NCBI GenBank assembly: GCA_032358165.1
Contig: JAALGY010000015.1
Span: 372,001-436,000, forward strand
DNA: 64,000 bases
Origin: Diplosphaera chodatii
Lineage: Eukaryota > Chlorophyta > Trebouxiophyceae > Prasiolales > Stichococcaceae
Reading direction: 5' to 3'
Numbering within the stretch: position 1 is the first letter of the stretch; every line of letters starts with the position of its first letter. Positions 38,081 through 63,600 of this stretch are shown piece after piece. The notes under the pieces are model-generated. The model searched no databases. It saw only the letters and a list, made by a program, of their open reading frames with translations, and was not told where the DNA came from. Both the position numbers and the translations under genes were made by a program.

Positions 38081-41000
38081 TCACACCATCTGGATCGCAG
38101 CTGGCTGCGGCTGCTGCGGCACGGGGACGCCATTGGGTGTTGGATCTGGCGCAAAGTGCACGCCAGGCCGCTTCGGCTGCTCTGGCATGCCGTCTTGTAA
38201 TGCAACTGCTACGGGGTGCACACTCCCCCCCTGGTCCCAGCTGCTGGTGATTGGGCCCCGCATGGAGTCCAACTCGCCATGCATGCTGCGGTAGTGCATG
38301 CTGCAAGCACAAATCCTGACCTTACAGCAGCAGCAGCGCAGCAGCAGCTGCACACAACGGAGGAGCCTGTGCTCCTGAGCTTTGCTACTGCAATCACTGG
38401 TGGAGTCTGACCTGTTCGGACGTGTGGACAAGTAGGCCATCTCAAACTCGGGGCCTGCGAGAGACCATAGACATAGCAGCGTCACGGCCAGCAAGCAAGG
38501 CAGCACAGCATACACACAACAGAGTTTGAGCACTGACACATCCACTGCTGCGCCTTACCTCGTCCGATAACATACTTGGCAGTCGGGATGGCCTGCGTGC
38601 GCAGATTGTGTGGTGATGTGATACGAGCAACCATGTGCAGCGAGCAATGTCTCTGAGGTCTGGGCGCTCGACCAACTGACTGCTGCCCCACTGCCTAACA
38701 GCGCCAAGCACTACATGCGCGCACCTTGAGTACGAACACAAGCCCGAACATCGCCCCCAGCACAAAACCGCCAACCACATCGGCTGTGCTGTGCTTGTTG
38801 TCGATGATGCGGCTGATGCCAATCCCCCAGCCAAAGCAGATCTGCACACACGGTCATGGGCATGAATAAGCGACATCAGCATGTCCAATGTGGCAGCAAG
38901 CCTGCGTCCAGCCTGGCCGTACACATGACCAGCGTCAGTGCAGTATCCTGCGTAACATGGCTTGGCTGCAAGGTTGCTCTCGTGGCAAGCTGTACCTGGA
39001 TGAGCACCCAGTACATGGCCAGCGCCTGGCCGAAATCCTTGAGCCAGACACCCCGCTTGCCCTTGCGCTCAACCTGCAGGTGAGATCCGGCTGCTAGCAC
39101 TGATGGTGGCCTGGCAGGTCGCACCAGGGGCAACAGTTCAACACGTGACCAAGAAGAGCAGTCCGACATGGCAGTCCAACATTTCAACGTGTCCTCACCA
39201 CATGGCTCATGATGGAGTGCCGTTGGCGATAGAAAAAGCACCAGAGGAGGTACCTGCAGGTACGAGACCCACATGAGCGCATGCTCAGCTAGCCGTCGGT
39301 CAACCACGGACTGAAGCCCTATGATACTGGTCTGGAGGGTTGGCACTTGAGCAGAGCAACAGCCATGTGGTCGCACATACACCACCCACCCGCAGTTGTA
39401 GAAAGCAAACAGCGTCGCGGTGGAAGCATGCCCTGCACCACACAGATGTCTATTGACTATACACGATGGCTGCAGAGTCGTCACTCAAAGCGGGCATATG
39501 GCTCCTGGTGGCATGTGACCAACCGGGCAGCACCTGACACGAAGGACTGGCGCGCATTGCGCTGCGTCTTTACGTCCGCGCGGCAAGGGAAGTCCAGCAG
39601 CGCCTGCGACCCGGAGGTGCCGATCTCCAGCGGCTGCCCCGTCAGCGTGGTGCCCACCGCCGGCTGGCAGTCCGCCAGCGTTAGGAAGTCGGGCCTGTGC
39701 CCAAAGGATGCCGGCTTGGTGCTACCATGACTCAGCCCTGATTGTGATGGTATGGTGAGGCAACACTGGCTTGACATTTGCAGCTGTGACCTGTGGGACG
39801 AGTGGGAGAATCCTGAGGGAAGAGCGGACAGACACCCTACAGTGGGGCAGCTCACCGCAGGACGCCTGTGGCCACCTTAGTAAGCTCCGTCATGAAGATG
39901 CTGCAGATACACTGTCCACTGTCAATGTGCTGAGAGATATGGATGGAACCTGTAGCTCTGATAGTGTTCATATGACAAACAAGTGGAAAGGAACGTGTAG
40001 CTCTGATAGTGTTCATATGACAAACAACTGGAAAGGAGGTACGTGAACAGGAAGGCGACCACGATGTCGATGAAGAAGTGCAGCATGGTGGACAGAGCCA
40101 TTGTGATGTTGCGGTGCACCTGCACGGCATTAGGTCCCTTGTTTGCACAGGCAGATGGCAGTACATGTGATGGAAGCGGCACGTGAACGATGTTTACTTC
40201 ATCAGAAGCCATCTGCAGCGTCCTACCCGTTTGAACAGGATAAGCTCGCCAATGCAGAGGCTGATCAGCATGAGGATGAAGGGGATGATGATGGCGACCC
40301 AGGCGGGGATGCTGTCACCACGCAATGGGTAGGAGATGGTGGCATCGTAGATGGCGAATGGACGGATGCGCGGCTTCAGCGCCCCTGCGCAAGTGCCACA
40401 TACGCAACCTGACGTACATTTCATCAGAACATGCAGAACAGTACCACTCCAGAATCCACTGTTGCTGATGGTGCGTCGTGCTGGTGCTTGGCAGGACATC
40501 AGCTGCAGCTCACAGTGGATGACGCCCAGCATGGCGACGGGGATCAAGGTGATGATCGCCGTCGCCCACAGCTGCGACTTGACGATGAACACCCAGTCGA
40601 TGTCCTTGATCTGCGGGCGAGTGCAGGGGGTGCAGCTGTCAGCATGCTTGGGTGGAGAGGAAACGAGAGCAGCACTGCAACCCGTGCAGCCAACCTCACA
40701 GTTCAGGTGTTTTCTCCTTCAACCGAGCATGGCGCACACCCACCCGCCAGGCGATGGGGGCACGTGCCCGGGGCGATGCGACGGATCTGGGCTCTCTGAA
40801 TTTGCTGCCGGGCAGCCGAGGCGACCCGCCCGACACGCTGTCCGAGGTCTTGACGGCCGGCAGGCAGCTCCTGGTCGGGCAGACACGGCGCGCCTGAGCT
40901 GCAATCTCAGGGTGTCCACACGGCAGAGGTGCACCTCGGCACCATCAGCCAGCTGCGCCGCGCTCATGCTGCAGCTGTCCTCTTTGCAGGTGGTGCGCGT

Positions 41001-42404: not shown

Positions 42405-45400
42405 ATGAGCAGCATGTCATGCAGCGTTGCGATCAGCTGCGGTTCAGCCCCTTCCTCGGCAGCACAGCAGCGCTACAGCCCGGCAGGCCCGGCACGCAGC
42501 ACTGCTGCAGGGCAGGGTGGCACAGGCCTCTGCAGTGTGCGGCCGTGGCAGCTATCGACAAGGCAGACGGTATGAAGCTGGCAACCATTGACAGCTGGCG
42601 GCTGTTCGCCTGAAAAATTCATGTCAGTGGCCGTGTGGCGGCATTGCAATGTGGTAGCAAACTCATGTCATGCTGGGTACAGCTGCCCTGTTGATAATGA
42701 GGGCCACGAGCAGCCGGACCGTGAAGTGTGGCAATGTGCAATGCCCTTGCAGCGGCACAGCGTGCAGCGGCGGCAGAGGCAGCCATGGCAGAGCAGGAGC
42801 AGGTCGGGTTTGCGGGGGACGCTGTGGCGGCACGGCTCTCCCGCAGCTTTCCGCTGGCCTCCGTCGTCGGCATGGACGACATCAAGGAGGCGCTGCTGCT
42901 TGGCGCGGTGTGTGGTTGCTTCAGCTTCTTTGCTGCTATGGACGTCCTTGACAGGTCATGCTGCTTCATCATGGAGGAATGGCCGGCCTCGTCGGCTCAG
43001 GAATCGCAGCTGCCTGTAGGTGGACAATCAGCTGGGCGGCGTGGCGATCATGGGGCGGCGGGGCACCGCCAAGTCGGTGATGGCACGGGGCATCCATGCA
43101 CTGTTGCCTCCCATCGAGGTGGTGGCCGACAGCTGGTGCAATGCAGACCCCGAGGACCCACGCGTCTGGGAGGTGAAGCACTGCCGCTGCAGCTAGGCGT
43201 CCATATCGACACCCATGGCCTTGCTCTGTGGAGCAGAAGAAGGCGGTTTCGGTTTCTGAGCAAGAACATCAGACGGTGAACGTTGCTGGGTTGACTGCTA
43301 TTGTCACCCTGCAAGAGCGCGACCAGACATCCTGCCTGCCACAGGACGGCTTGAGGGAGCGGCTAGGAGCCAGGGCAGACACGCCGCCGACCCGCATCCG
43401 CGACGCGCCCTTCGTGCAGATCCCGCTGGGCGTGACAGAGGACCGCCTTGTGGGCACAGTGGACATCGAGGCGTCCATGAAGGCAAGCTGGCACCATTGT
43501 GTAGCGGTAACCACCAACAGGTGCTGCATTTTGATGGTGTCACGGCGATGGGACCTGCCCGGCTTGCACAATGCCGCCAGCAACACCTGAGGGGCAGCTG
43601 CCTCTGCGCACCCGGCAGCCAGGCTGACGCCAGTCGGTGCCGCCAAGCAGGAGGGCAAGACGGTGTTCCAGCCGGGCCTGCTGGCAGAGGCGCACCGTGG
43701 CGTGCTGTACGTGGACGAGATCAACTTGCTCGATGATGGCGTTGCCAACCTGCTGCTGTCCATCCTGTCAGACGGCCGCAATGTTGTCGAGCGCGAGGGC
43801 ATTTCCATCAGCCACCCGTGAGCAGCAATTCATGACCGCAACTCACAGGCGCTCAAGCTGCTGCTGCTGCGGCCGTGCCTACTGTCCTGTGTCGGATGAA
43901 CGAGTTCACCTGGCCCTGTCAGCTGCCGCTTGGATTACAGCAGGCGAAGACAAGTGTCCCGCTGATGTGACAGCGCCCAGAACACTGTATGGCACGGATA
44001 GGGGGTCACATGGACTGTACACATCGTAGGTGCAAGCCGCTGCTGATTGCGACATACAACCCAGAGGAGGGCTCCCTGCGGGAACACCTGCTGGACCGGA
44101 TAGCCATCACACTGTCAGCCGATGTGCCGCCGACCTTTGAGGACCGTGTCGCCGCAGTCATGGCAGCATCCCGGTTCCAGGTATGTGCATTGGAGAACTA
44201 ATTTCATGACCATGTGCAGCGCTCCGACCAGCTGACTGGTATGGCATGCTGGCAGCTCAAACAGTGATGCGATGTCATCTTGGTACTGCTACAGGATGAG
44301 GCACCAGCCATGCTGAAGGAGGCAGAGCAGACCAGCCAGGATCTGCGGAATCAGGTGCGAAGCTGTCTCCTCCCTGGGCCGGCGTTGAGATCGAACGACC
44401 TGCTACCAGCATGTCAGACAGCATGCGGCCTGCATCAGGAGGTGCTGTCGACCTTCACACATCTGTGTGTGCAACAGGTCATCTTCTCGCGGGAGTTCTT
44501 GAGGGACGTGAAGATTGGCGACAAGCAGGTGAGCAGCATGCAATGCACTGCTGCATCCACACAGCGCCGACCGGTCACTGCGCCGAAGCAGCAGCATGCC
44601 ATCGCCTGTGTTGGTCTGCATGCTGTGAGCCTGCTCACCTCTCCCAGTGCACCCGCAGGTGAAGTACATAGTGGAGACGGCGCGGCGGGGGCGGGTGCAG
44701 GGGCACAGGGCGGAGCTGTTTGCGGTGCGGGCGGCGCGGGCGGCGGCGGCGCTGGAAGGCCGCACCGACGTCAGCCCCGAGGACGTGCAGAAGGCCATCA
44801 AGCTGGTCATCCTGCCGCGCGCCGACCTGGACGCCATGAGCCAGCAGGTGGGCGGCGGCCCTGGTGCTGCCAAGTCGTCCTCAGTATCATGACCCTTGCA
44901 CCGCCATGATATCTGGTGCTCTGTCGAATGGTCGCGCGAAGCCGACTGGTCCATCATATGGTCAAACCAGGCGGCTGCTGCAGCAGTGCAAAGCCGTAGC
45001 AGCCCACGGACACAGCTGCACGAAGCATGCTCTCAGGCTGCTTGGTGTGCTGCGTGCAGGAGGAGCAGCAGCAGGAAGAGCCGCCGCCGCCGCCGCCCCC
45101 CCCTCCTCCAGAGGACCAGCAGCAGGAGCAGGACCAGGAAGAGCAGGAGGACGAGGACGAGGAGAAGGAGGAGGAGGAGGTGGGCTTCCCAGTCAACTTG
45201 GCCTTGCGGGATGCTGCCTTTGATGAGCAGCTGCATTATCAGGGGCACAAGCAGCAGGGCTGTCAACAGCTCAAAATGCCGAGGGGTATCCTGTCGGCCC
45301 GCAAGCGTGTTGCAGAGCCCACGTGATGTGAATCCAACCGATGTGTGGTCATACACTGATGGCGGTTGCCGACGTGTGTCCTGCACCATCGGCAGGACGA

Positions 45401-47543
45401 CAACGAGGACCAGCCGGACCAGGTGCCCGAGGAGTTCATCATCGACAGCGAGGGCGTGATCATGGACCCCAGCGTGCTCATGTTCGCGCAGCAGCAGCAG
45501 CGGGCGCAGGGGCGCTCGGGGCGCGCCAAGACCGTCATCTTCTCCGAGGACCGGGGGCGCTACATCAAGCCCATGCTGCCCCGGGGTGGGCTCTCTGGCC
45601 TCCACCGACTGTGTGACACCCTCACCTGGAGCCGTGATGGCGCCGCTGCACTGTGTCCAATGTTCGTAACACGTTCAGAGGTCCGTGTGCGTGCACCAGA
45701 CCATCACTGTACTGGAGATGAGTTTGTCAGAGCACACCAGCATTTCCTGCTGCTCTGCAGGGGGCAAGGTGAAGCGGTTGGCAGTGGACGCCACGCTCCG
45801 GACAGCCGCACCATACCAGAAGTCACGCAGGGCGCGGGCAGAGGCAGCCGGCAAGACGCGCAAGGTCTACGTCGAAAAGGTGCACCACAGCGTGGACTTT
45901 GGAAGCACTGAACTGGGCAGGTGGCCAACAGGGCCGTGGCTTCTGACATGCAGTGTGTCAGCAGCCCGGCACAAGGACTGCTGGATCGAGGTTTGTCCTG
46001 GCAGCCCTGCTGGGCGGTTCTGATGATGACAACCACTGTTGACAATGGTTCGCAGGTGGACATGCGCAGCAAGCGCATGGCGCGCAAGGCGGGCGCGCTG
46101 GTCATCTTCGTTGTGGACGCCTCTGGGTCCATGGCCCTCAATCGCATGGCCTCCGCCAAGGTGCCACCGCATTGTTGGTGACAGTCATCGTGTCGCTTGG
46201 CTGCACCGATGACAACCTTTTCTCAACCTTGTGGCTTGGTACTCAGAGGGGTCTCATCGAAAGTGTGCAGGGTGCGGCGATGCGGCTGCTGGCGGAGAGC
46301 TACACCAGCCGAGACCAGGTGCTCTTGACGGAGTGTCAATGGCATGTTGACCGCCGCAACAAGCCTGCTTGCCCTTTGCTGATCGTGCAGTCAGGGGGGC
46401 AACACAAGAGACTCAGGCTGTCCCCCCGCCCCGCCGCAGGTGAGCCTCATCCCCTTCTACGGGGACCAGGCGGAGGTGCTGCTGCCGCCCAGCAAGTCCA
46501 TCTCCATGGCGCGCCGCCGCCTGGACTCGCTGCCGTGCGGCGGCGGCTCCCCCCTCGCCCACGGCCTCGCCACCGCCTGCCGCACCGGGTTGCAGGCGCA
46601 GTCCACGGTGCGCCGCCGCCCGCACCCGCAACACACCACTGTGCCCCTGGTGCTGCCGGGGGGGGCATCCCCCTCCTGCCCGGTCGCCAGTCACCCGCTG
46701 CATGCGAGGCCTGCCATGCCAGAGCCCATCCACCTGGCAATGCTCCGTTGACAGCAGGGTCCTGACCCGTCCCCCGGCTGCGTCCTGGGTGCAGGGCGAC
46801 TGCGGGCGGGTGATGGTGGTGCTGCTGACTGACGGGCGTGCCAACGTGTCCCTGGCCAAGAGCAACCGCGACCCCGACGCGCTGGCAGAGGACGCACCCA
46901 AGCCCTCCACGGTGAGCAGCGTGCTCGTGGCGAAGACTGCTGCTCCGGCAGCCGTGCGGTCACGAGGGCGAGGGCCTCATCACACCAGCACCATTGGTGT
47001 TCAATGCTGTGCACAACCGCCTCGACAGCGTACCGTGATGAGAGCTGCGTCTCCAGCTGCACGGCATCCTTTCATACGATGCAGGACCAGCTGAAGGAAG
47101 AGGTCATGAACATGGCCAAGAAGATTGGCGCGGCAAACTTCAACCTCCTGGTCATCGACACAGAAAACAAGGCACGTGCCGGAGCAGGATGGTCAGCCGT
47201 AAGCCTCTGGCCCATTGTTGGCAATGTGCCTGACGTCCTAACAAACACTGCCTGAGATCATGCACTGACCGTGTGCAGTTTGTCAGCACCGGCTTTGCGG
47301 AGGAGATTGCCAAGGGCGCGGGCGGCCGCTACTACTACCTACCCAATGTGAGCTCACCAGCGCGTTGTACGCAGTATTACCTATTGTCAGATGAATCATG
47401 CACGCGCGTTGCTCCAGGGCATGCTCACCTTGTGCTGACACGACGGTGTGCTGAGCCCTGTGCAACCCCGGCATGTGCAGGCCAGCGACCAGGCCATTGC
47501 AATGGCCGCCTCATCAGCCATGGCAGATGCCAAGGCAGCCTGA
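42405..47543 (+). CDS. CHLD: magnesium chelatase subunit D, chloroplast
   Basis: Part of the ATP-driven ChlI-ChlD-ChlH complex that inserts Mg into protoporphyrin IX, the first committed step of chlorophyll synthesis; acts in the plastid. The start at 42405 gives a Ser/Ala-rich transit peptide ([20 protein letters not shown]). The AAA+ module follows: [20 protein letters not shown] (about 42848), Walker A GRRGTAKS (about 43050), [19 protein letters not shown], Walker [35 protein letters not shown], then [11 protein letters not shown] and [20 protein letters not shown] linker of about ten prolines followed by long Glu/Asp/Gln runs (45060-45180) is typical of ChlD. The C-terminal integrin I domain has an intact MIDAS ([13 protein letters not shown], about 46110; [20 protein letters not shown]) and ends [14 protein letters not shown] with TGA at 47541-47543. 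Complete. The exon 1-2 junction is uncertain. Confidence 0.95.
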
Positions 47544-48519
47544 TCCGCAGGCTGTCATTGGCTCGTGCCACCCCTGCGGTGCTGACCGCACAGAGCTGAT
47601 CGGGCCCGTGCTGATACGGAGTGAAGTCAGCACATCGTCAGCGAATGAAGGAACGGCATTGGTACAGATGGGTACGACGTCAGCATGCCCTGTGGATGCG
47701 GGTGTTATTTGGTCCTTAGTGGTCAGCAGCATATCGCCTAGCTGCGGCACGCTTGTCGCATCCTGAAACCACGCGAACTCAGCGGCAGTGGCCTTCCTCC
47801 TGCTAAGACGCAGCACTCAGACGCTACCCAGTGTGCGGTGTGCCGGGTTCCGGCAGTTGTGCACCCGACACCTGTTTGGGCCAGGCACACAACGGCAGGA
47901 CGATACTGGCGTGCATTGCCGAGCTGGCCACAGCTTGGTTCCTGGACGCTGGCGCTGCAAACTTTTGCTGTGTGCGAAGGACGGTGTCAGACTACATGGA
48001 CGGTCCTGACAGCTGGACTTTGTATGGTGCGTGTAAGTCGTGGCCGTTTTGGCTTAGGACCCCAAACCTCCGACCCACAGGGGCAATAAGCAAGCACTCA
48101 TGACGCTACTACCGAATCGCATGCGGCCATGTGCTGCGCCTTCTGAAGGGGCCATGGATGATCGCATGAAGATTGGGCCTCGGCCTTCGAATCAGAGGGC
48201 CTGAAACGATAGCTATCTGCGGTTTGTCACGCCGAGCAGCCTGTAGCCCGTGAAAGTCATGAGCTGTTGTATAAGTCAGCGCTTGATCGGGCTAGCTGCG
48301 GCGCGGAACTCACATCGCGTGATGCTCACAGCGCGACCCGGAACAGCCCACGCACGTGAACCCCAGATTGCAAAAGCCCACGCAGGAATCTGCAGACTGC
48401 GCCGTGTTGTCTTGGTGGCGTCTCGCATCGAGGGCGCAGCTCAACGTTGCGTACCATTAGCAAGCATTTGACAGCCAAGTGACCAGCGCCCGCCGACGTG
48501 AGGCGGGCGAAGGTCGCCA
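47544..48519. promoter_or_regulatory. intergenic and promoter region upstream of the NOS gene
   Basis: Nearly 1 kb between the CHLD stop and the NOS start codon, both on the + strand. It should carry the CHLD 3' UTR and the NOS promoter. No motif is identified. Confidence 0.4.
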
Positions 48520-51500
48520 ATGGTGACCCTTGCGAGGGACGAGGATGGTGCCTCACAGAGCGTCGCAATGCTGCTCAAAAAGTGGGACAGCGCACACGAC
48601 GGCGGGCAGGCAATGGTGAAGCAGCAGAACGGGCACTCCGGCGCCCGCTGCGAGGCCGCAGCACATGCAGCAAACGGCACAAACGGAGTCCTCCACGCGG
48701 ACAAGGCGGCGACAGCAGCCGTCGCGGAGGCGCCCATCAATGCGTGCCCTTTCAGACATGGATCCGTGGGCGTCAAGCCGTTCCCGGTGCGTGTGCACCT
48801 ATTGCTGACCGCTGCACCCGGCTCCCAGCCAGGCTGCCGAGACGACGTTGATGTACACTCTGCAGGTTGGGCACCTCAATTGACCAACTTGACGTGTGTT
48901 GACCTTCAGGGCTATGTACACGGCAGGAACACGAAGATCTGCCCAGCAGGTCTGTCCTCGCTGTCCTTTGATGCACACGCCATGCGCGCATGATGTGAGC
49001 TGGAACGCCATGAGAACATTGACCACACAGGGCATGAACAGCAGAGCTCCCTGCGCGTACAGCAGCTGAGGAGTCTTGGTTCGTCACCTAAGGCATGTCG
49101 ATGGTCTGCAGGGTGCAAGGTCAATGGGCATCTTGGCCATGGCGAGACGCCGCAGCAGACGCTCATCCGTGAAGCATTGGAATATCAGGTGTCATTCTGT
49201 CCCTGTTCATATTAGTACCTTCATCTCGAACGCTGTCAATGGCACACCAGCTGTGATCGCATGTCAGAACTTGCTTGCACAGGTGAGGTGTGCCTCTCAC
49301 GCTGCTCACATCACGGCACAGTCCGGCTAGTGCAATGCCACATCAGCACCGAAAACTCTCATGTGCATGGTCTCAGGAGCTGTATCACCATGAGAGGAGC
49401 TCACCGCCGGAGATGAGGGAGGCGCGCATCCAGGAGGTGCTGGCGTCTATCAATACCACCGGCACTTATGCCCACACCTGGGATGAGCTGCAGCATGGTG
49501 CGCCTGCCCTGGGGTGACTTCCTGGCAGAGCACCTGAAAACACTGTGTACCGCCACATGCACTCCAGGTCACATGTCGAACATTGGCTGCACCGGCTCGT
49601 AGTATGTCAATCCGGTCAGCCTCAGGTGATGTGCGCTTTCGCTCCTGCCCTTGCCTGGTTGTGATGTGCTGGTCCCACTGCAGGCGCGCGCGTCGCATGG
49701 CGCAATGCACCCAAGTGCTCCAACAGGAAGTTCGCCATGGAGCTCAACCTGCTAGACTGCCGGGACTGCACCACACCAGAGGTGCTGGGGCCGCACGCTG
49801 GTCCCAGGCACCGTGCAGTGTTCGCTGAGTGAACCTTGCAGTGGTGCACCAACAGTATGAGCAGCAGCCCCCCAATGCTGGCGCGCCATGCCGCAGACCA
49901 TGTACGAGGCGTGCCTGGACATGCTGGAGCGCGCCACGGTGGTTGGCGCCACCGAGACCTTCATGACGGTGTTCCGCCCCGCGCACCCGCTGCGCCCACA
50001 GGGTGTGCACCACCGACATCGGCACTGTGCAACTTGGTGTCTTGCTTCGCCGCCACCTGATCAGCGAAACGGAGCTCGCACACCGACAACGCACGTGCAT
50101 GTGGAGCGTTGGCACCTGGCTGGCTGCTGCGCTTCAACGAAATTGGTTCCCTGATGTTACTAGAGGGCGGCCCGCGGGTGTGGAACTCACAGCTGCTGCG
50201 CTTTGCGGGCTGGCGGAACGACCAGATGGAGATCGACGGCGACCCGACCGAAGTGGCCTTCGCCGAGTTCTGCCGCCTCAAGTTTGGCTGGGCGCCGCCA
50301 GGTGATCAGCAGCGGGTTGGCCATCACATGCGCACTTCCCTTTCATGTTCAACCCAGCCTCACCTTCGAGCACAGAGCACACTGGCGGTGCCATCAAATA
50401 CACGTGAGAAGCACCCAAATATGCGGTACCAAATGCGGTGTCAATACGATGTGCTGTTGCGCAGGTGGCAAGGGCGGCAGGTTCGACCTGTTGCCTCTGG
50501 TACTGCAGGATAGCCCCGCCACAGCACCCAAGGTGAGCTGACGAATGCTTCTGCCGGTGGAATGTCGCGATGACACTGCAGTGCACACACCTGCACTGCA
50601 AAGCACAATGGACACTGACAGCATGTATCACCTTTGTGTGCAGCTGTTCGAGGTACCGCCGCAATACTGCACAATGATTCCATTCTCGCACCCGCGGCAC
50701 CCCTGGTTTGCGGGCCTGGGCTTGAAGGTGAGAGAGCAAAGAGTGTGCAGCCACAGGCACACCCTCCTGCAAGAGGGCCATGCACACGTGCACACTGCGC
50801 TTGTCTCCGTGAGATGCTGAAAGCTAGGCCCGTTCAAGTCTCACATGAGCTACTGTACGGTGCAGTGGTATGGCGTGCCGGCAGTCAGCAACATGGAGAT
50901 GACCTTGGGCGGCCTGCTTTACACCGGTCCGAATTTGGTTGTGCTAAACTGCTAAACAGCTCACCGCAATGCACCACTGCAATGTTGGGAGCAACAACAG
51001 GGCCTACTTACATGCCCCTGCAAAATGCAAAGACTGGTTGGCTTGCTGCCTGCAGGCATCCCTTTCAGCGGCTGGTGAGTGGATGATCAGCTGATCTCTC
51101 ACACCTGTAACAGAGGCTGCGCACATGCAAGTCAACAGATGCGAACATGTGCTTGGCTGACCTTTGTCAGGGCACAGATGGCAGCCAGAAGGGCTGGCTA
51201 AGCTCAGTGTGCCCGACATTGTCGTGTGCTGCCGGCAGGTATGCCGACACAGAGATCTGCCGTAACCTGTCTGATGAGTGTCGCTACAATATGCTGCCCA
51301 CCATTGCCGAGAAGCTCGGCTACAGCACTGCAACCAACGGAACGATGTGGCGGGATGCGGCACTCGTCGCGCTCAACGAGGTGTGTGTTGAGCTTGCTAC
51401 TGATAACGATGAGCCAGGATATGTCTCAGGGGTCCTGCTCTGCTTCAATGCGCATGACATCAAATATCGAGATCGTGGCTCAGATGCTCCTGGGTCTGGC

Positions 51501-54500
51501 TGCAGGCTGTAACACACTCTTTCCAGCTGGCAGGTGAAGGCTTGCTCTGTTCTTGTATCAAGCAGATTAGCCGGCTGCACCAATGGCAGTCTGCAGCACA
51601 CACCAAGCAGCATGCGTGAAGGGGGCCCTTGCCAAACATGATGTGTGCAGATTCGCTGATCCTTTGTGCTGGTCATGCAGGCATGAGCATGGTGGATCAC
51701 CACACGCTCATGCAGGGCTTTTGGGACTGGCAAGCCAAGGAGCAGAAGACACGCGGCTACATGCCGGGTGGGCGGCCATCTGGCCAGCTGCGTGTGTTGG
51801 ATGCCTGCATACAACGCCATCTTCCCTGACTGCACTGCGGGAGTGTCCAATGTGCTGGATCCTGCCTGATGGCACGCTCACATTGGTTCACCTGGTATGT
51901 GACACGGCGGTGGCTCCTGGCTCCAGGCAACTGGAAGTGGATCATCCCGCCACTTGCTGCAAGCACCAGTCCCTGCTATTTGGGCCTCAACAAGATGATA
52001 GAGTACACGTTGAAGCCCGCCCTGCTGTACGCTCCGGGGTTTCAAAGGTGACCTGGAAACTCCTCAGTAGTGTGGGCATTCACTGATCATGTTACTTGTG
52101 ATCAGCGCCATGCAGCTGTCATGCTTGCTGGACCACAACAAGCTGATTTTGTTCAACGTCTGAGATGTACTTCCGACACAGCTACGCCGAGAAGTACTAC
52201 GGGCCAAACTGGAACCGTGTTGGGCCGCCAGCACAGTCGCTGCAGCTTAATGCTGCCGTATGTGCATGGCTGGGGCGGCGGCGGCTCAAGAAGGCCTCCG
52301 CACGCTGCCGTGTGCTGATCCTGTTTGCAACGGTGTCTGGCACTGCGAAGAAGTACGCAGGCAAGGTGGGCCCCCGGCAGTTGGAGCCCATTCCTTCATT
52401 GGCTTTGGCTTTGCTTCGTGTCATTTGGATCGGTCTATAGCAGGTTCTAGTGCAACGTTCAGTCGGTAGTTCCTGCGCTGGGCTGAGACGTTGCTGCCAC
52501 CTGATGAGCTCCAGGCACACAGAACGTCCTGCAGCACAACAGCAATGTCTTGAGTTTGCTGCTGCAGCTGGCGGCAATGCTGACCCAGGAGTGGATGGTC
52601 ACCGTAAAGGATGTGGCGGGCATCACCGGGGCTGCAATCAAGTGGGACCTGTACGATGTGGTCTGCTTCTTGACGTCGACCTATGGCTCCGGTGCAGCGC
52701 CTGCGTCCTCTACCAAGTGAGAACCCGATGTGACAGATGCTGGAATGTATCAAGATAAACGGTGGAATAGATCGACCAAGATAAGCAAGCCCTGTCATTT
52801 TGGTCAGCGTCGCTGTTGCCCAGTGGCTACTGAAGCTCCACGACTGGAACGCTGCCAGGCGTGATGGACCTGCCCACACACCATGTATATCAGTTGCCTT
52901 TGCGTACTGATGCAGGTTTGTGAAGTGGCTGGCGCTTCAGGGGGATGCGCTGCAGGAGTCGGGGTCGGTGCTGAAGGACAAGCGCTGCGCTGTCTTCGGC
53001 GTGGGGTCCAGCGCATACCCGCGCTTCTGTGCCGCTGCAGAGAGCATGCGCGCGCTGCTTCTGGCTGCAGGTTCCGCATGGTCTTCTGGCTGGTCATGTG
53101 CCCTCTGACTGCTAAAGCACTAGGGGTAGTTAAAGAAGTTCTTTAACTACCCCTAAAAGCACTGTGCCTGCTCACTATCTTGGCTGCTGCACGAGAGTGC
53201 GTCGACTGCTCAATCTCGATGCAACTGTGATAGCATCATGACTATGGCGTGCCGCAGGCGCTCAGGTTATCATGGGCATCGGCAAGGCGGACTCGCTGGG
53301 GGATGGTGAGGGTGCACTGACGAGTTGGGTGGGTGAGTCGTCGAGCTGGTCCAGCGAACGCTCACCTTGCTCAGCTGCTATATCCTGCTGTTTTCCTGCT
53401 GCACCCACAGCACTACAACCTCCTGTGCTCTTAAGTCTGGTGTGTGTAGCTCATCTCTGGTTCACATGTGCTTCTGTACAGGCGAGCTGGTGGGTACGCT
53501 GAGTGAGTTGGGTGTGGCACCAGAGGCATGCGCCCGTCTTGCCAAAACCGCTGCCAGCGGCGCAGCGGACACTTCCACATTCGTGCGGCACTACAAGGCC
53601 ATCAACATGGCAGGTGTGGCAGCAGCTCATTTTGAGGTCGCAGAGCTGCATTTGCGCAGGACGCAAGCTAGGCAGCAAGCTGTACAAATTTGGTGCCCGT
53701 ATCGACTGAGTAGTCTCGACCCAAAATCAGGCCTTCAACTGTTATCAGTAGGCAAATCATGGCACGCGGTGTGCTGCAGGTCTTACTCGAATGGCACCCG
53801 ACTACAGCAGCTCGGTGGGAACTGTCGTGGCGGCTGATGAGCAGTTGACAGATGCAGCGTTGCGAGCAGCGCCCACACGGTCTACAAAATTGCTGCAGCT
53901 GGACATATCCACTACTCACCTACTGTACGACCCAGGTGGGCGACGCCTCAGCAAGGGTTGACATCCCCAAGTCACCATGTCTGTCGCCGCCTGAGCTGCC
54001 TACTCCTTTGCATCATTCACGTGCAATAAGGGAGGCTCATGTTTTGATGTACAAAAGCTGGCACGTGAGAGCCTTGCCACTGCGTACATGATGCAGGTGA
54101 TCATGTGGCCATCTTCGGCAACTGGCACCGGTTCAGGGACGAGGTCGAGGAGCTGGGCAGGGCGCTGGGGCTGAAGCCCACTGAGCAGTATGCCAGCGGC
54201 CTTGACATGCCCTTCGACCTAGAGGTGACCAAGCTGACCAAGCTGGCACCGTTTGTCTAGCAGCTGCTGCCCCGTCAGCGCAGGAACCCGGAGCAACTGG
54301 AACTGTTTGGTACCGGCGGCTGCACCTCCTTAGCTTATCTACTCGTGTAATCGTCAGGTTGTGTTTGTGTGCCTGAGCAGGTGCTGGAGGAAGCAGAGAA
54401 GGCAGGCGTCTCCATCGACGCCAAGAAGTTCCCACTGCCAAACACATACAGGTGGTGGTCACGCCTTCAGGTGGTGGTGGTGCCGCTTCCTCAGCTTGGC

Positions 54501-57500
54501 GGCAGCACCATGCTCACGCTGCAACATTTGAACAGGCCCGCTGATGCGATGCCCACTGCTGTGGCAGGACCATTCTCAACGAGTACTGCGCCCTCATGGA
54601 CCTGGTGGACCGTGAGGCGGTGGCCGCCCTGGCGCAGGTGCCGTGACGCCACGGGCCATCCCTCAATCATGGACTGTCCCTGCTGCCCTTGTTGGCAATC
54701 TGGCTGAGGCCCTCCTGCATCAAGACTGTGCCAAGCTGTCTCAAGCCGTGTACTGCCAGCCAAGTGTCGCAGCTGCCAAGACTTCTCCATGGGGGTTCGC
54801 CTGGCTGCAGTTCGCTGGCAGCGAGGAGGACAGGGCGGAGCTGCAGGGCCTGGGCAGCGACACCACCACCTTCCACGCGTGGCAGCAGCACCAGCAGCTG
54901 CGGTGCGCAGGCCTGACCCGCCACCAGGCCCCAGCTCACAGCCAAAATGTGCTGCACGCTGAGCTATGCCTCCAAGCTGGGGCACGAAATCCCCCATGCC
55001 GTCCTGAGTCACCGCCCAAGTCGCAGGTGGCTGGACCTGTTCAGCAGTTTCCCCAGCCTGGCCGGGCGTGTGCCGGTGGAGGTATTCCTGCAGCTGGTGC
55101 CGCTGGTGCACAGCCGCTACTACTCCATCGCCTCCAGCTCCGACGCATGCCCCGGAGAGGTGTGTGAGGCGCCTCGCTTAGAGCCCACAGCAAAGTGCAC
55201 CGCGGTGGACCAGGCATCTGGCTGCAGATTTCGCAGTGCTTGTTCCGAGGCTTGGCAGCTGGTAAAGCTGCCCAGCGTCCCACCCAGGGTATTGATATGG
55301 GGTTGCTTGGCTGGCACATCCAGCCTTCCTGCCATGCCTATTGCGCAGGTGCATGCACTGGTTGGCCGTGCACAGTGGACTCTGGCGGATGGCTCGACGC
55401 GCTTTGGGCAGTGCTCAGACTGCATCACCCAGCTGAAGCCTGGAGACAGAGTCCGCTTCAAGATTGCGAGGGTGTGTTGCCACATGCGCGCTCAGGCCAA
55501 GTTGTCTCACTGCAGGACCGTTGATGAGGGTGGTTGTTGGCATGACTGACGCTCACAAAAGGGAGACCGGGGGAGGACGCCACCTGTTGTCCAGAGTGCT
55601 ACTAACCTGTTGTCGCAGGTGGCTACATTCCGGCTGCCAATGAACAATGCAGCGCCTGTGGTCATGGTGGCTGCTGGCACAGGCTTTGCGCCGATGCGAG
55701 GTTTCTTGCAGGTGTGCATTACAGAAGTGTTCAGGAGGCTCATGGCATTTGCGGTCATTTGCCAGCGCTGCTCATTGGCTTAGCAAGCGCCAGCACCACG
55801 GCTGGCATGTTGACTGGTTGCCATGCCCGGCGGTTGATACACCGATTTGTGTCAGCGGCTGACAACTTCACAACCGCTGCACTTCTGCAGGCTCGTCAGA
55901 AGGCCAAGAAGCAGGGTAACACAGGCCCATGTGTGCTGCTGTTTGGCAGCCGCACTGCCGCCGACCAGATCTGCAGGTGCGTCCGGTTGTGCAAGAACGG
56001 CATGGCCGATTGCATATACTCTGTTGTGTTGAAGCACACTACCAGCCTTAAGCGAGGTGCACTGTGTCTGCTGATGGGGTCGCCATGGAACGCTTGCAGA
56101 TCGCAAATGAGTGGCTGCGATGCAGGGATCTGGTGAACGCTGCATTTGAGGAGGGCGCCTTGACGCACAAGATCCTTGCACACAGCCGTGAGCCAGGCCA
56201 GCCCAAGCAGTACGTTCAGGACCTCATCCCCGCGCAGGTGGATGCACTGTTCAAAAACCTCGCCATCAAGATGCTTACCAGTGCCATAGTACCATGAGCT
56301 CTGGGCAATGAGGCGGAGATGCGTCTGTGCGTTTGACACTTGTTGTACGCCGGCAGTCTTCTGCGGTGGTGTCACCAACATGTGCGATACGTGCTGCACC
56401 GCAGGCCAGCTGGTTGAAGGACGTGCTGCTGAATGACAAGGCCCACATATATGTGTGCGGCGATTCGCAGATGTCTGCCGGCGTGTCCGCCGCCATTGGC
56501 CAGATCATTGGTGGGTGCCCCTGGCTGCAGCATTATTGATTACAGGGTACTGGAGCCTTTTGGGCCCTATGTGCCGTAGCACTGAGCTACCACCTTACAG
56601 GACCCATGATGGCCCACGGCCTTCTCATATGTATACAGGCGCAGAGACGCTGGCAGCCCTGTCAGCATCGGGGCGTTACCATGAGGTATTTGAATAACGT
56701 GCTTGTGACGTTGTGCAGCTCCCCGACCGTGCAGGTGCTGCTGCCCTGTTATCTTGCTTGTTTCAAGTGTCGCTGAGGCTTTCAACATGCCAGTCGTAAT
56801 ATGCAGGACGTGTTTGGGCTGACGACAATGGACCTGTCAGGCGCCAGCGCCCAGGTCGCCGGCAGCCGCGACGCACAGCGCGCCCTGCTCAAGGCTGCTG
56901 CTTGCGGGCAACCCACTGGTGTGCCCCCTGCTTTGAACGCCACGGTCGTCTACTCGCTGTCAAGGCACAGAGCAGCCCGCTTGTCGGGCGCACAGTGTAC
57001 ATGCAGGCTGGATGCAGGCTGTCAGCGGGTGCGGAAGTTGCACGGGCATGTGCTAACTGTGGGCGAGGGGTAGGCATTGGACGAACATGCTACCGTTCTG
57101 AGCCTGCCCAGATAGCGGGCGCCTGCAGGATGTGATGCCCTGTCGCCTTCCTCATGCTGAGCGCCTCAGCATACTTGATCCGCCCCCGCAGTGGTTGCGG
57201 ACAAGTTGGCGGCCGGCTCCAGTGCAGACGCCGCCGACGGCGATGGCAACACGCTGTTGCACCTGGCGGCAGCGGGGAAGCACATGGACGTGATACAGGT
57301 GTTCTGTAAGCCTGTGCCTCCTGGGCAAAAACGAGGTCTGGCAGCACGCTGCCTGACCTGTGAAGACGTCACCAGCATCTGGCTCTCGGCTGAGCCAGTC
57401 TGCCGGCTGTATTTCTGAGCAGACACTTGTGTGGCATGTGCTTTGGTGGCCACGGCTCAATGGCCTTGACCGTTCTCTGCTTGTTCGGCGGATGGCGACC

Positions 57501-59919
57501 GCATTCGTATGGCTGTGCTGTCTGATGCAGGTCCTGCTGGCTGCCGACCCGCCTGCGGCGCTCGGCCTTGTCAATGACTGGGGTCTCACAGCCGTGGCGC
57601 TGGCTGAGGTGAAGGGCCATACTCAGGCACGCGATGCACTGACAGCCGTTGGCGGGACCACTGCTGGACTGCACACGTTCTACCCCCTGCATTTGGCAGC
57701 CGTCAAGGGCGACGCAGGTGAGGTCGTAATGCCCTGCGCGCACTCTTCCAGTAACGCCACCGACTCATGTGTTGTGCAAGCAACAAACACGCCTGCTAAA
57801 GTTTGCCCGTGCGCATCGAGCTGTCAGCCTGTCTCGCCAGGACATGCAGTTGCCCATTGCCTGATGTTGTCGACCTTCTGCGTAAACAGCGTCGGCACGG
57901 GAGCAGCTTGAAAAGGGCGCCAATCCCAATGTGACGGACTGGGCTGGTGCGACGCCACTGCAGACGGCAGCCGTTTTTGGCAGCACTGGCGTCATCCAGC
58001 AGCTGCTTGCAGCTGGCGGCGACCCCAACATCGCAGACAGGTAAAGTGCCCGTGGCCTTTGGCGCCTGCGTGCACATTGACCGCATCAGTCTGTACAACC
58101 AGCCTCACGGTGAGGCCTGCAGTTGCACAGCTGGACTTGCGGTGTCCTGTCTCAGTGGTGGTCGCCATCTGCCCGGTGCAGCTATGGCCACACACCCCTG
58201 GCCGGTGCGCTCACATTCAACAAGCCAGCGGCAGTGAACCTGCTCAAAAAGGCAGGGGCACGCGTGGTGGTCAACTCGCCGTCAGCTAAGGCAGTCACAC
58301 GCAATGGCGGCGGCGCCATCGCGGAAGACACGGGCTTTACTCCAGACATGGCAGCTGCTGCTCAGGCCATGTGAGCATTTTTCTGGGCACACAGGCGCCG
58401 TCTTGCACCTGTCAGATTTCTTTCTCTTTCAAGGCGATTTAACTGTAGGCCGCCAGCAGTATCAACCTTGCGCAGGAGAGACACAGCAGACGCCCTGTTT
58501 CTGAAGTTTGGGCGCTTGACCGCGTGCGAAGATGTGCACACGGTCCACAGTTGCTGCTCGTCCAGCCCGATCGCACTGTTGCTGCCTGTCCAGCCGACCT
58601 GTCCAGCAAATGTCACTGTGGCCACTGAATCCAGGTGGGCGTCCCTGTCGGCGGACGCGTACCCCGAGGAGGTGCAGCGGGCGCTGACGGGGGCGGGCAT
58701 CGCGCTGTTCGAGCAGCTGTTCGAGGCGTCGCCGCAGATGAAGCGCCTGTTCCCCTTCGTCGACGCAGATGGCAACCCCTCCCGTGAGGTGCGGGGCCTG
58801 GTCCGGAGGGGGTACATGGTCTAGGGCAGGATGGCCATTTAACATGTTGTGAGGCATATCAAGCTGGCTGGTATGTTGGAGGGGGTGACAGCATGCGTTT
58901 GAAGCCCACCAAACTTCTTTTGGCGCCACAGGAGATGGGCAAGCACGGCCTCATTGTCATGAAGACGCTCGGGCTGGTCATCGGCCGCCTTGGCGATGTG
59001 CCGGTGCGCCGTCAATGAAGCCATACTATGAATAATTGTGAACATCGATCGGCAGCCAAACAGACTGCTGTTACCTTCTGTATGATGGTATACACATGGC
59101 AGCAACCTCAACACTCACACATGAGTGTGTGCTCGCCAACAGCACCTTCTGGAGGCAGGAGTTGCAAACATGGGTCACTGCTGGACTGCCATCCTGCAGG
59201 GCCTCGTGCCAATGGTGTCGGACCTCGTCAAGCGGCACATACAGTATGGCGTGCGGGTGAGTTGGAGCTGGCGCTATTCCTGTGTACCTGCCGAAGACAG
59301 CCAGAGCAACGATGACTTATCAATATCGGAGTCACCATTGCGACCAAGTAGTTGTGCCTGCACGCAGATGGAGCACTACGCTGTTCTGGCTGTTGCACTG
59401 CTGGCAACGCTCGAGGTGCGCTCCTGGTTGCAAAGGATGTATGACAACCTCCTTGTTTTGCATGGCCTGTGCTGGCCCTCTGGCAATGGTGACGTGTGCA
59501 AGCTGGACCCTTAAAATACAAAAGAAGCTGCACCCGAGTGAGGCGGAACGAAGCTACATTCAACGAAGCCGAGTCGACTGCCATGCCATTGCAGGGCGCC
59601 TTTGGTGTGCAGTGGGGGCCGGCTGAGACGAAGGTCTGGGAGAAGGTGTTCGGTCTCATTGTGTATGCTGCCAAGGTGAGGCAGCAGGCCCGCGCATGCC
59701 TCCGGCATCATTAGCGAAATTGATACCCAGCAGCTGCTGCGAGCGACATGACGCTCCACGCTGATACCCAACTGCTCGCCTCGAAGTGAACCTCGTCAGA
59801 GCACAGGCTCCTGACTCATGAAGGTCTATCATTCGTTGTGGTGACAGGCCGCATACAAGGAACACGACCAACAACTGGAGGCAGCAGCCGCAGCACAAGT
59901 GGCGCCGCCTGCGGCCTGA
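48520..59919 (+). CDS. NOS: nitric oxide synthase fused to ankyrin repeats and a globin
   Basis: Predicted to convert L-arginine to citrulline and NO with NADPH and O2. The oxygenase domain includes TTGTYAHTWDELQHG joined in phase to ARVAWRNAPKC, whose Cys (codon 49716) is the heme thiolate ligand. Then come VWNSQLLRFAGWRNDQM, GGRFDLLPLVLQ, WYGVPAVSNMEM, IPFSGW joined to YADTEICRN (Glu 51252 = arginine-binding), MSMVDHHTLMQGF and WKWIIPPL (pterin/dimer region). The reductase has FMN motifs (ILFATVSGTAKKY, LTSTYGSGAAP, VFGVGSSAYPRFCA), FAD motif RYYSIASSS, NADPH motifs AAGTGFAPMRGFLQ and YVCGDSQMSAG, and a NOS tail GRYHE-DVFGL. Reading continues in phase into ankyrin repeats (about 56860-58378) and a globin (58475-59919), with stop TGA 59917-59919. 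The N-terminal exons (48520-49100) are the least certain; a CxxxxC zinc motif was not found. The domain set is far longer than a usual NOS. Confidence 0.93.
49373..52070 (+). other. NOS oxygenase (heme/arginine/pterin) domain
   Basis: Exons from ELYHHERSSPPEMREARIQE to KPALLYAPGFQ. It has the heme-Cys motif WRNAPKC, the substrate Glu in WYADTEIC, the DHH motif and WIIPP, each at the order seen in animal NOS. The oxygenase Cys and Glu are both kept, so catalysis is plausible. Confidence 0.92.
52165..56700 (+). other. NOS reductase (FMN, FAD, NADPH) domain and linker
   Basis: After the oxygenase, a short basic stretch (AWLGRRRLKKASARCRV, about 52265-52315) lies where animal NOS binds calmodulin and runs straight into the FMN start ILFATVSG. 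FAD and NADPH modules follow (VGRAQWTLADGSTRFGQCS, VMVAAGTGFAPMRG, HIYVCGDSQ). I see no large autoinhibitory insert in the FMN module. Confidence 0.88.
53114..53163. mobile_element. tiny palindromic insertion with 8-bp flanking repeat in a NOS intron
   Basis: TAGGGGTAGTTAAAGAA (53121-53137) is perfectly complementary to 53139-53155, with one base between. The palindrome is flanked by AAAGCACT on both sides (53114-53121 and 53156-53163). An 8-bp target duplication and a TIR of the AGGGG type are what hAT-family MITEs show, but at about 34 bp the element is far shorter than usual. Confidence 0.6.
56807..58378 (+). other. ankyrin repeat region of the NOS fusion
   Basis: Starting in the exon that also ends the NOS tail, four to five ankyrin-like units follow: RALLKAAACGQPTVVADKLA, GNTLLHLAAAGKHMDVIQ-VLLAAD, YPLHLAAVKGDAG, GATPLQTAAVFGSTGVIQQL with DPNIAD, and YGHTPLAGALTFNKPAAVNL. 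Exons join in phase. Ankyrin repeats usually bind partner proteins. Confidence 0.88.
58475..59919 (+). other. C-terminal 3-over-3 globin domain of the NOS fusion
   Basis: Exons: 58475-58788 (SLSADAYPEEVQRALTGAG and FEASPQMKRLFPF with the CD1 Phe), then EMGKHGLIVMKTLGLVIGRL (His codon 58944 at the E7 position), GLVPMVSDLVKRHIQYGV (proximal F8 His codon 59236), MEHYAVLAVALLATLE (G helix), GAFGVQWGPAETKVWEKVFG (H helix) and a short Ala-rich tail. The pattern is that of neuroglobin/single-domain globins, about 150 residues. Confidence 0.9.
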
Positions 59920-60608
59920 AGGCCTTGCGGTGAGCTCGCTGCAACGGCGCAGCATGGCTGCAGGAGCTTGAGAGTGGAGCGAGGTGACCGGCACTGTGTC
60001 TGCAGGCATGGCCATCGTCAGCCAGGTCGCTGACCCATGCCCCAGCAGTAGGTATTGAACCACCATACATGTTTGACACGTTCAGCAACGGTCGAGAGAT
60101 GCGACCTGAGCACTGCTCACACATTCATTTGTCTCTTTGTACAGTGACCTGGATCTATATTGGTCTTCTGTCTTGTGTCAATGTTGTCCATTGCTTGATA
60201 GGTAGGATTGGCATTTGGCCACAGCACCATGGCCATGCCAGAAACTGCAGCTGGGCATGCTGATATGTGTTGGGGAGTGACGGTTGACCGGCACGCTTTG
60301 CTGAAAGCCAAACCTGTGAAGGCAGTGCAAGTGACTCGCCGGATGGTAGGAAGGCCTTGCAGTCAGCGCAATGTTTCAGAGCCAGACACGTGTGGCTCAC
60401 AGAATTGCTACAACACGCATTCCAGCATCGTGCACATGAGCCCTAGTACACTGCAACATGCACAACAGAAGCAGCACTCTGTACCATGATGTGTCAATGA
60501 TGCCGCCTGCTGGCAGGCACTCACTTTAGGTTTCATACACTACACCATGAGCGGTGTTGCTGCCCTATATCGAATCGAATCGAGTCGAAGTGCGGCACGC
60601 GCTCCTTA
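59920..60608. other. intergenic between convergent NOS and SCCPDH-like genes
   Basis: Both 3' UTRs should lie here. No coding signal. Confidence 0.5.
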
Positions 60609-63600
60609 TCACATCTTGCTCTGGCTGCTGGCCTTGTCCGCCGGCTCGGCGTCCGTGGGGCCGCTGGCCGCGAGGCGGTGGCCCACCGCCGGGCTGATGG
60701 TGAAGCGGCAGTCGGCGTGGCGCTGCAGGCGGTCGATGAGCACGGGGCCCATCGCCGAGGCGGGCGTCAGGATGCCACCCTTGAGCCGCCCGGCCTCCTC
60801 GCAGTCTTTCAACTGCACGGGTGCATATGAGTGTTATGTAGGAGTGACTGCCGTTGAATCGCCCTGGACAACAACACCAATACCACAGGCCATGGCAGCC
60901 AGGTCACGACTGCAAGCGGCGGCTGCCACCTGCAGTGCGAGCGTGAGGCCGGCCTCCAGGACCATGCGGGTGGTGCTGCCGAAGCCCGCGTCCCCCCTGC
61001 CATACGCCTCCGCCTGCAGCAAGGACGCCCCGCAACAGGCAGTTGGAGACACGGGGTGTCAACAGGTGTGCTGCCCGATCGCCACCGGCGGCTGGCCGGG
61101 TCGCCATGAAGGCTGTCCTCTGCACATCAGGCCGAGCGGAGCAGAGAGCAAGCTGCCAATGGCACCTGCACAGTGGCCTGTGCCTCGCCCTGCGGCGTGG
61201 CCAGGAAGTAGTTTGTCCATGAGGCACCCTCCCGCGTCTTCTCGTCAGGCCCTGCAGCAGAGCCCCTTGTACACTCTGGCCTGGTCTGTACATTCGCCCG
61301 GCAATGGCACTGTGGCCCCGTCATGCATGGCTGCAAGGCTCATGGGCGCCCAGCATGCACACCTTCGCCGGGCGCAGGCAGCAGCCTCTTGCGGAGGAAG
61401 CCCCCGATGATGGGCGCAGTGAACAGGCCCAGTCCGAGGCCGAGGCCGGCTGTTGCGAGCGGAGCCATCAGCATCCCCGGGTTGGGTGCTGGCATCTCCT
61501 CGCTGTACCGCCAGTCGCTGCCTGCAGCATTGCCACCGACATGCATATGATGGTGCATCTGCCACAGTCGCTGAAGTCGAGCAACTATCACCAGAGCCAG
61601 ACGCTCATGTGCTGCATCGAAGTTCACTTCTCAGTGGAACTCGTGCTCATCGATGAACAGGCAGACACAAACGCAGCTGCCTGGTAGTGTTGCGTCCAAT
61701 CACCGTATGCATCGTTCATCAGCGCATTCGACCGCCGCACAACCCGTGTGTTGATGGGCGCCATGAAAAAGGGGATGGTGCGCTTGTTCAGCTCTGGCAC
61801 CCAACCCGGGGCGAAGCTGTCCCTGCCGTCTGGTCCCGACCTGCCCAGGTGGACGGCAGCAGCTGCTCAGGATGTGTGGCTGGTACCACGCATGCCACCG
61901 ATACCTGAGGATGCCTCGTGGAGACTGGCACACCTGCCCTGACGCAATAGCACGGGGACTGCACACTGATGGGCATTCGAGCGGCCCAGAAAGCTCACCT
62001 CTTGTCGGGCGGGTTCAGGCCGTAGGGGTCGGCGGCCGCCCGGCGCTCCTCCCGCGAGATGCTCTTGAAGCCCAGCAGCGAGTCGACGGTGCCGCCGCCC
62101 AGCGCGCCGCCCTTGGTCGTCGCCAGCATCCGCACCTGTGTTGTGGCCCTGCGCCAGGCACACGCACCATTTCTGACAAGGTGACAGCGATGTCCTCTGA
62201 GACATGCCCAAGGGCGACCAAGTGGTCAGGAGCGGCCGTGGTGACACCCAAGCGAGGTGCCTGCAGGTGCCGCCAGGCTTTCAGGTCATTGCTCACTTGC
62301 CGAGCTGCTTCTTGACGTGGTCCACCACGAACCAGGTGCCCAGGTCGGAGGGGATGCTGTCGTAGCCGCAGCAGGGTACCACGCGCACGCCCTTGGCGGC
62401 CGCCGCATCGTGGTACTTGTCGATGATGCGGCGGATGAACCACGGCTCACCTGCAGCAGCTCGCAGCGAGGCGCGGCTCAGGTTGCCTGACGTTTGCACT
62501 TGCTTGCTTTGCGGTCAGCATCACTGCAAGGGCAGCAGCATCATGCTGCCATGCTGCAGTACAGCAACCACCTGTGAGGTCCACATAGTGGGTGCCCTCC
62601 TCGACGCAGGCCGCCACCACCGGCTCACCAAGCGTCTGCAATCAGGCCAACGATTTTTGCAACTGCAGCACCTCACGCTCAAGCATATGAAATTTGCATC
62701 TCCAGCATGAACCACTTGTCTGGCAGGCAGTTTGTGCATGGCAGCCACTGTTGACTACCAATGCCGGCTAGGGTTCTTGTAAGTCATCAGCCATCCTGCA
62801 AGTACGCACCTGGTACGGACCCGCCAGCGCAATGATGACCTTTGTTCGGCGGGCGATGGCCTGCAGCGTCTCGGGCTCCTTGATGTCGCCCAGCAGGATC
62901 TCCGTGTCCTGATGCCAGATGAGGCGCAGTGAGCACAGTGAATACAGCATTGTGACAGCTGTTGCCAGCTGGCGAAGAAGAGTCAGGCCATCAAATATAT
63001 TACAGTCTACACCACCCAGCAGATCATGATTGCAGGAACAGCGCACTTGCAGGAATGTCCAACAGAACGATGCGAGGTTACACAACCACGCAAGAGGGCA
63101 CACCTTGGCGGCTCCATTGGCAGCGGCCACTGACTGTCGGACACCCTCCAGTTTCTCCTTGTTGCGACCGGCCATGGCCCACTTGACCTCACCCTGCGAT
63201 GGCAGACGTTGGTGCACACTGCAACCGAGCCCATATACATCGGTCCCTGCCAGCTTCAGTGCAGCAGCCGCACAGCGTCAGCAGCACATCAAAACCCACA
63301 ATGAAATCGATCCTGACAAGTAGGCCTGAACTCTTGATTAAGGAATGTGCATTGAGTCACCTGATACTTGCGTGCAAGCCGCTCGCACACCAACCGGCCA
63401 ACAAAGCCAGTGGCTCCCCACACCACCACATCAAACTCGCGCTGCACCTCTGTCATGTTGGCTGCGCTCGCCGAGACTGTTGCAGCGGCGGTCTGACCTC
63501 TTATCTGCTTCGACCTGGATCCCGCCCCAGCACCTCGCCCTGTGACTGCAGAACGACCTGACAATGACGTGTACGATTGGGCCTTGCTCAAGCCTGCTAC

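Follow-up and report, generated by a model that had tools for sequence, protein, structure and literature searches.

A single gene, at positions 48520 to 59919 on the forward strand of the window (the whole 64,000-nucleotide stretch analyzed here, C13:372001-436000 in a genome of 85.6 Mb and 55 contigs), is predicted to encode one protein in which a complete nitric oxide synthase (NOS) of animal type is followed first by ankyrin repeats and then, at the C-terminus, by a globin. The preliminary description had proposed this fusion at the same coordinates, which are the first ATG and the stop codon of our final model, and the fusion was confirmed by spliced models in two copies of the gene and by a Pfam scan of the 1532-aa protein. 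The models were obtained by spliced alignment to a profile of 12 relatives, in separate runs for the window and for the second copy on contig C44. The gene comprises the following features.

48520..59919, forward strand: whole NOS-ankyrin-globin gene, ATG to stop, 43 exons, 1532 aa
48520..48786, forward strand: exon 1, a variable N-terminus and then the conserved CPFRHGSV, the start of the algal NOS
49153..52033, forward strand: NOS oxygenase domain, aa 117-481, exons 3-15 (PF02898 NO_synthase, E 6.7e-112)
49716..49718, forward strand: codon of the haem-ligand Cys180 in RNAPKC (alignment with animal and algal NOS)
51252..51254, forward strand: codon of the substrate-binding Glu365 in WYADTEI (aligned with the animal WYMGTEI motif)
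52318..53301, forward strand: FMN (flavodoxin) domain, aa 532-663 (PF00258 Flavodoxin_1)
53869..55420, forward strand: FAD domain, aa 748-958 (PF00667 FAD_binding_1)
55664..56485, forward strand: NADPH-binding domain, aa 991-1099 (PF00175 NAD_binding_1)
56639..56818, forward strand: end of the NOS part, GRYHEDVFG, spliced over the intron 56686-56806 with the frame continuing (spliced models and alignment)
56894..58272, forward strand: ankyrin-repeat region, aa ~1153-1339 (PF12796, PF13857, PF13637, PF00023)
58702..59666, forward strand: globin domain, aa 1395-1506 (PF00042, E 4.7e-19; PDB globin matches)
58750, 58944 and 59236, forward strand: codons of a Phe, a distal His and a proximal His of the globin, presumably CD1, E7 and F8 (alignment and the usual globin numbering)
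59917..59919, forward strand: stop codon TGA (final model and DNA)

The spliced alignment gave 44 exons per copy, with structures that were alike except in the first two exons. These two were joined into exon 1, since the profile run had split it around a stretch that is absent in the relatives; this stretch is open reading in both copies. All 42 introns of the window gene are GT-AG, and the C44 copy has one GC donor. The final model has a single terminal stop, and no stop codon, which the preliminary description had named as evidence against a single gene, lies in the spliced frame between NOS and globin. Two in-frame ATGs, at 48520 and 48568, are conserved, and either may be the true start. 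An earlier comparative model, based on the C13/C44 comparison only, had 42 exons and 1404 aa at 48568-59919, but left out two exons of the FAD domain and set some exon borders wrongly. A comparative gene run on the whole window, whose list still contains doubtful models on the strand opposite real genes, put the gene end at 59821. Comparative finder and spliced profile alignment nevertheless concur on one gene.

That NOS and the ankyrin-globin part are two neighboring genes merged only in the model is very improbable. dN/dS is unable to distinguish one gene from two; however, the NOS-ankyrin splice is identical in both copies, and the same fusion occurs in at least 11 homologues among the 120 listed of 203 over threshold, which argues against a modeling artifact. 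Furthermore, the longest contig of one of them, P0004 (1485 aa), measures 4687 bases, which leaves no room for long introns and fits a transcript. TGTAA poly(A) motifs were uninformative on this matter: four lie within 48500-60700, none was kept in C44, and none was found past the stop either. A pseudogene was ruled out, as neither copy model contains a stop or frameshift and dN/dS is 0.084 between them. A bacterial contaminant was ruled out by the 42 introns and by an intron-bearing succinate dehydrogenase gene, one of the following neighbors in the window.

10341-14750, reverse strand: succinate dehydrogenase flavoprotein subunit (13-exon model and domain scan)
17711-20462 and 21839-30538, reverse strand: tandem glycerophosphodiester phosphodiesterase-like pair (one of the pair scanned)
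34377-36279 and 38081-40532, reverse strand: tandem PAP2 phosphatase-like pair (one of the pair scanned)
42785-47543, forward strand: Mg-chelatase-like AAA and VWA protein with a Q/P/E/D-rich linker, adjoining the NOS gene, most likely ChlD (gene model and domain scan)
60609-63456, reverse strand: oxidoreductase-like model, downstream neighbor of the NOS gene, its first 326 residues matching NAD_binding_10 just under the Pfam cut-off

A short palindromic element lies in an NOS intron at ~53121-53156 and matches both strands at many places on other contigs; it is possibly a small mobile inverted repeat.

Six NOS oxygenase matches in the genome fell into two loci only, C13 and C44, in a search that is blind to introns and may miss a weak third gene. 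All 43 exons recur in the C44 copy, which encodes 1531 aa, with 94.1% identity to the window protein over 1520 aligned residues, and lies within a collinear stretch in which introns and spacers are alignable at ~74-80%. Between the copies, dN was 0.0325 and dS 0.3885. By module, dN/dS was 0.425 for the N-terminus, 0.044 for the oxygenase, 0.064 for the FMN and 0.059 for the FAD/NADPH modules, 0.062 for the ankyrin repeats, and 0.093 for the globin. With the 1404-aa model, divergence was 4.0, 2.2, and 22.8% at codon positions 1, 2, and 3, respectively, and 32.6% in introns. Every module past the N-terminus, ankyrin repeats and globin included, is thus under purifying selection.

Diverged partners were found for five of the six loci tried, mostly at 71-78% nucleotide identity with introns alignable. 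The window (1-64000) pairs with C44:821001-892000, at 75% in the NOS gene region. C13:100001-105000 has a partner of 74-78%, ~13-18 kb beyond the place first guessed; C13:700-705 kb one of 75%, in a comparison limited to a single stretch of C44; C1:500-505 kb pieces of 69-89% on C51; and C26:2000-2005 kb one of 77%. For C13:20001-25000, no partner was found at C44:465001-475000, the one 10-kb place compared. Four genome-wide searches returned one long partner apiece, with short repeat matches in addition for the NOS locus and C1. On C55 (174 kb), the plastid genes rps12, atpE, atpB, and rbcL were recognized by eye, the last with what we take to be rbcL signatures, such as KYGRG. Its best solved matches were 8q04 (1067 bits), 1gk8 (1064), 9hvm (1052), and 9chz (1047), with 4hhh, 1wdd, 5iu0, and 8ruc at 1022 or less; the first two are presumably from Chlorella and Chlamydomonas, respectively, and the last four presumably from land plants. 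This rbcL and its structure matches say that the host is a chlorophyte, which bears out the algal host supposed earlier. The single rbcL match in the genome makes a mixed culture of two algae less likely. What is new here is that the genome perhaps consists of two diverged subgenomes, from either allodiploid hybridization, as described for Auxenochlorella (PMC12636532), or an old whole-genome duplication.

The alignment shows that the haem Cys180, Glu365, GRYHEDVFG, and the globin residues Phe1411, His1428, and His1460 are all present. Together with the oxygenase, FMN, FAD, and NADPH modules, this agrees with the complete animal-type NOS of the preliminary description. Like animal NOS1-3, the window protein has the oxygenase-FMN-FAD-NADPH order, the haem Cys, the Glu, and a haem-pocket Val (Val340), which occurs in 5/5 animal rows; the site is Ile in six of the seven presumed bacterial rows of a deep bacterial group. 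It differs from them in the ankyrin-globin tail and in the zinc site, which is CPAGC (CX3C) instead of the animal CX4C. It lacks the long FMN insert of the two animal rows NOS1 and NOS3 (P0072 and P0062), and its lariat carries an insert. Both CX3C, for algal NOS, and a lariat insert, for non-mammalian NOSs, are described in excerpts of PMC8728061. A basic stretch, GRRRLKK, lies where the calmodulin-binding helix is expected, but it is not conserved.

All 11 relatives whose globin is complete retain both the distal and the proximal His; the globin of the twelfth relative, Apatococcus, is truncated in the annotation and departs after LFPF. The best solved structure for the window globin was 3wfw, a hemoglobin-like flavoprotein fused to Roadblock/LC7 (45 bits), followed by class 1 non-symbiotic hemoglobins and then the hemoglobin-like flavoprotein 3s1i. 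With the globin alone as query, the matches were two metagenome fragments of 93 and 107 aa, and no free-standing globin emerged as a donor. Because ankyrin words dominated it, a query with the ankyrin-globin region brought up 17 proteins rich in ankyrin repeats and not a single NOS. A PF00042 profile search of the whole genome gave zero matches, this gene's own globin included, probably because the globin is split into short exons, so it carries no information on other globins.

The fused homologues listed are two from Chlorokybus and one each from Micractinium, Mesostigma, Edaphochlamys, Chlorella vulgaris, Chlamydomonas incerta, C. schloesseri, and Gonium, plus the metagenome proteins P0004 and P0060; Chlat1 was read as Chlorokybus and Mesvir1 as Mesostigma, and N-terminal parts are absent from some of these models. 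In the window gene and 11 aligned fused relatives, the ankyrin repeats lie between reductase and globin (Pfam positions for four). The globin is of the same family as in all 11 fused members compared (59-128 bits), a set without KnNOS2. The NOS-ankyrin-globin architecture is therefore already known, chlorophytes included: excerpts of PMC8728061 give NOS-globins from Klebsormidium, Chlorokybus, and Mesostigma and from the chlorophytes Gonium pectorale, Chlamydomonas incerta, C. schloesseri, and Edaphochlamys debaryana, and our homologues add Chlorella vulgaris and Micractinium. Hence, of the preliminary description, the gene, its architecture, its host, and its domain order stand, whereas the novelty that it saw in the chlorophyte context does not; the roles it suggested for the globin, in NO oxidation to nitrate, sensing, or feedback, are hypothetical. 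No further report of an algal NOS-ankyrin-globin was found in a literature search by title and abstract start, with queries other than the names Micractinium and Apatococcus.

Compared with the KnNOS2-type algal NOS-globins (excerpts of PMC8728061), the window protein shares module order, a C-terminal M-family globin with two His, and CX3C. In contrast, it shares only 43% identity with the Chlorokybus proteins in alignments that cover 98% of it (1404-aa model), has two diverged copies in its genome, and belongs to another chlorophyte lineage. The closest among the matches listed was the Apatococcus lobatus NOS-ankyrin protein P0001 (45% identity over 92%), which has the ankyrin repeats but as annotated ceases to match past the first globin helices. 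This model (WJX74_009932) breaks off after the globin start, and its true globin exons are probably missing through an annotation fault. Chlorella vulgaris P0009 and Micractinium P0005 share the architecture (Pfam positions for P0005) but represent a different lineage of NOS and tail. The SyNOS-type cyanobacterial proteins likewise carry NOS and globin on one chain, and the SyNOS globin was modeled on PDB 3s1i (PMC6104048, in part), a structure that likewise ranks among the top matches for the globin of the window. Their globin, however, is N-terminal, preceding the oxygenase in 3/3 presumed bacterial proteins scanned (0/3 with ankyrin repeats), which upholds the difference in domain order noted before; they have the haem-pocket Ile (PMC6104048, same excerpt), and their globin is not close in sequence to that of the window. 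When eight presumed bacterial globin-NOSs were compared, over their first 520 residues, with the window globin, three scored 12-14 bits and five gave no match.

The NOS-core tree was built from 998 columns and 31 rows (both copies and a selection of 29 from the 120 homologues listed); this and the tail tree contain neither KnNOS2, OtNOS, nor land-plant globins. The window copies were sister to Apatococcus (99/94), and these grouped with Chlorokybus and KnNOS1 (100/99), with Mesostigma outside (98/96). We call lineage A the NOSs of Mesostigma, Chlorokybus, Klebsormidium, Apatococcus, and the window alga. Lineage B (100/99) held Chlorella, Micractinium, P0004, Gonium, two Chlamydomonas, two Edaphochlamys, Botryococcus, and P0019. 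The ulvophyte NOSs (Ostreobium and Bryopsis) fell outside both. A 48-row quick tree gave the same groups, and the presumed bacterial globin-NOSs included in it grouped with Nostoc and Amaricoccus NOSs. Constraining the window copies, Apatococcus, and lineage B together was rejected with a p-AU of 1.8e-5, an optimistic value since the group was picked after tree inspection; it includes P0004 and P0019 and leaves out the ulvophytes. The rejected joining thus points to a new placement, in which the window NOS sits with Apatococcus and streptophyte NOSs and not with the Chlorella/Chlamydomonas type.

Lineages A and B were united in the best tree without support (61/22; 81 in the quick tree), and adding P0060 to them was not rejected (p 0.36). 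A single clade of 13 fused NOSs, with P0060 left out, was rejected (p-AU 3e-45), because plain NOSs are interspersed among the fused ones; this tells against a never-lost tail, not against a single origin. In the tail-only tree (14 rows), the window, Apatococcus, and Chlorokybus tails grouped (99/97), as did the Chlorella and Chlamydomonas types (99/98); Mesostigma had no firm position, and Apatococcus was not the specific sister of the window tail. The tails form one globin family, and their tree largely agrees with the NOS tree, a new result contrary to the independent fusions suggested in print. The plain NOSs KnNOS1 and Edaphochlamys P0012 are placed firmly within fused groups, suggesting that the tail can be lost. 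Edaphochlamys P0008 (tailed) and P0012 (plain) are close kin at the consecutive loci HYH03_006385/HYH03_006386, likely reflecting a recent tail loss or a split annotation.

As judged from these trees, one fusion with several tail losses is the simplest reading, and the conflict of the trees with the species history needs an old duplication or gene transfer. This fusion may have preceded the chlorophyte/streptophyte split, with lineages A and B already distinct, the nested plain NOSs, KnNOS1 too, as tail losses, and the self-scavenging NOS lost in land plants, a scenario that we consider somewhat less likely than not. Separate fusions in streptophytes and chlorophytes, as excerpts of PMC8728061 suggest, seem doubtful to us. 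In that paper's tree KnNOS2 is unrelated to the Edaphochlamys and Chlamydomonas NOS-globins, and in ours the fused rows do not form one clade and the union of A and B is weak; yet the tails align end to end, fall, except for Mesostigma, into nearly the same two groups as the NOSs, and carry globins of one family, with 80-128 bits between the window globin and ten tails of lineages A and B and 59 to P0060, against 45 to the best solved globin.

Regarding function, we infer that the predicted polypeptide would be an NO synthase complete in itself and equipped with a globin that handles NO. NADPH would supply electrons, via FAD and FMN, to the haem of the oxygenase, where arginine would yield citrulline and NO, and the C-terminal globin, held on an ankyrin-repeat spacer, would bind O2, convert part of the NO to nitrate, and be re-reduced by the NOS flavins. 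NO pulses could then be limited by the enzyme itself and arginine nitrogen returned to nitrate assimilation. That the protein makes NO from arginine and that its globin oxidizes part of it to nitrate is the function we consider most likely, with about as much confidence as doubt. Excerpts of PMC6104048 describe more nitrate in E. coli with SyNOS and propose a flavohaemoglobin-like globin, and in vitro work cited in PMC8728061 (in part) makes the cyanobacterial NOS globin mainly responsible for nitrate. The SyNOS chemistry serves only as an analogy, because the algal tail globin has little sequence similarity to the globins of bacterial NOSs. The somewhat quicker evolution of the globin than of the other modules counts against an NO-oxidizing globin.

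Ankyrin repeats usually mediate protein contacts, and the globin might instead be a sensor that binds O2 or NO and, via the repeats, alters NOS activity, dimerization, or partner binding. The position of the repeats between reductase and globin and their constraint, as strong as that of the NOS, fit such a sensor, but the two conserved His also fit NO dioxygenase chemistry and the Pfam scan of the final protein found no separate output domain, so we consider a sensor possible but rather unlikely. By analogy with the proposal for SyNOS, the enzyme could also serve mainly to mobilize nitrogen from arginine to nitrate with little free NO; E. coli with SyNOS grows on arginine as its sole nitrogen source (PMC6104048, in part). 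This we regard as improbable, as no nitrogen-metabolism gene was recognized among the five neighboring gene models scanned and Val340, in place of the bacterial Ile, suggests faster NO release.

We know of no NOS in land plants, and the plant NO source is an open question for that reason; green algae do have NOS, several with an attached globin. A chlorophyte with a streptophyte-type NOS makes the single ancient fusion with later losses testable, and the two retained, diverged copies offer a natural comparison of selection on the NOS, ankyrin, and globin modules.
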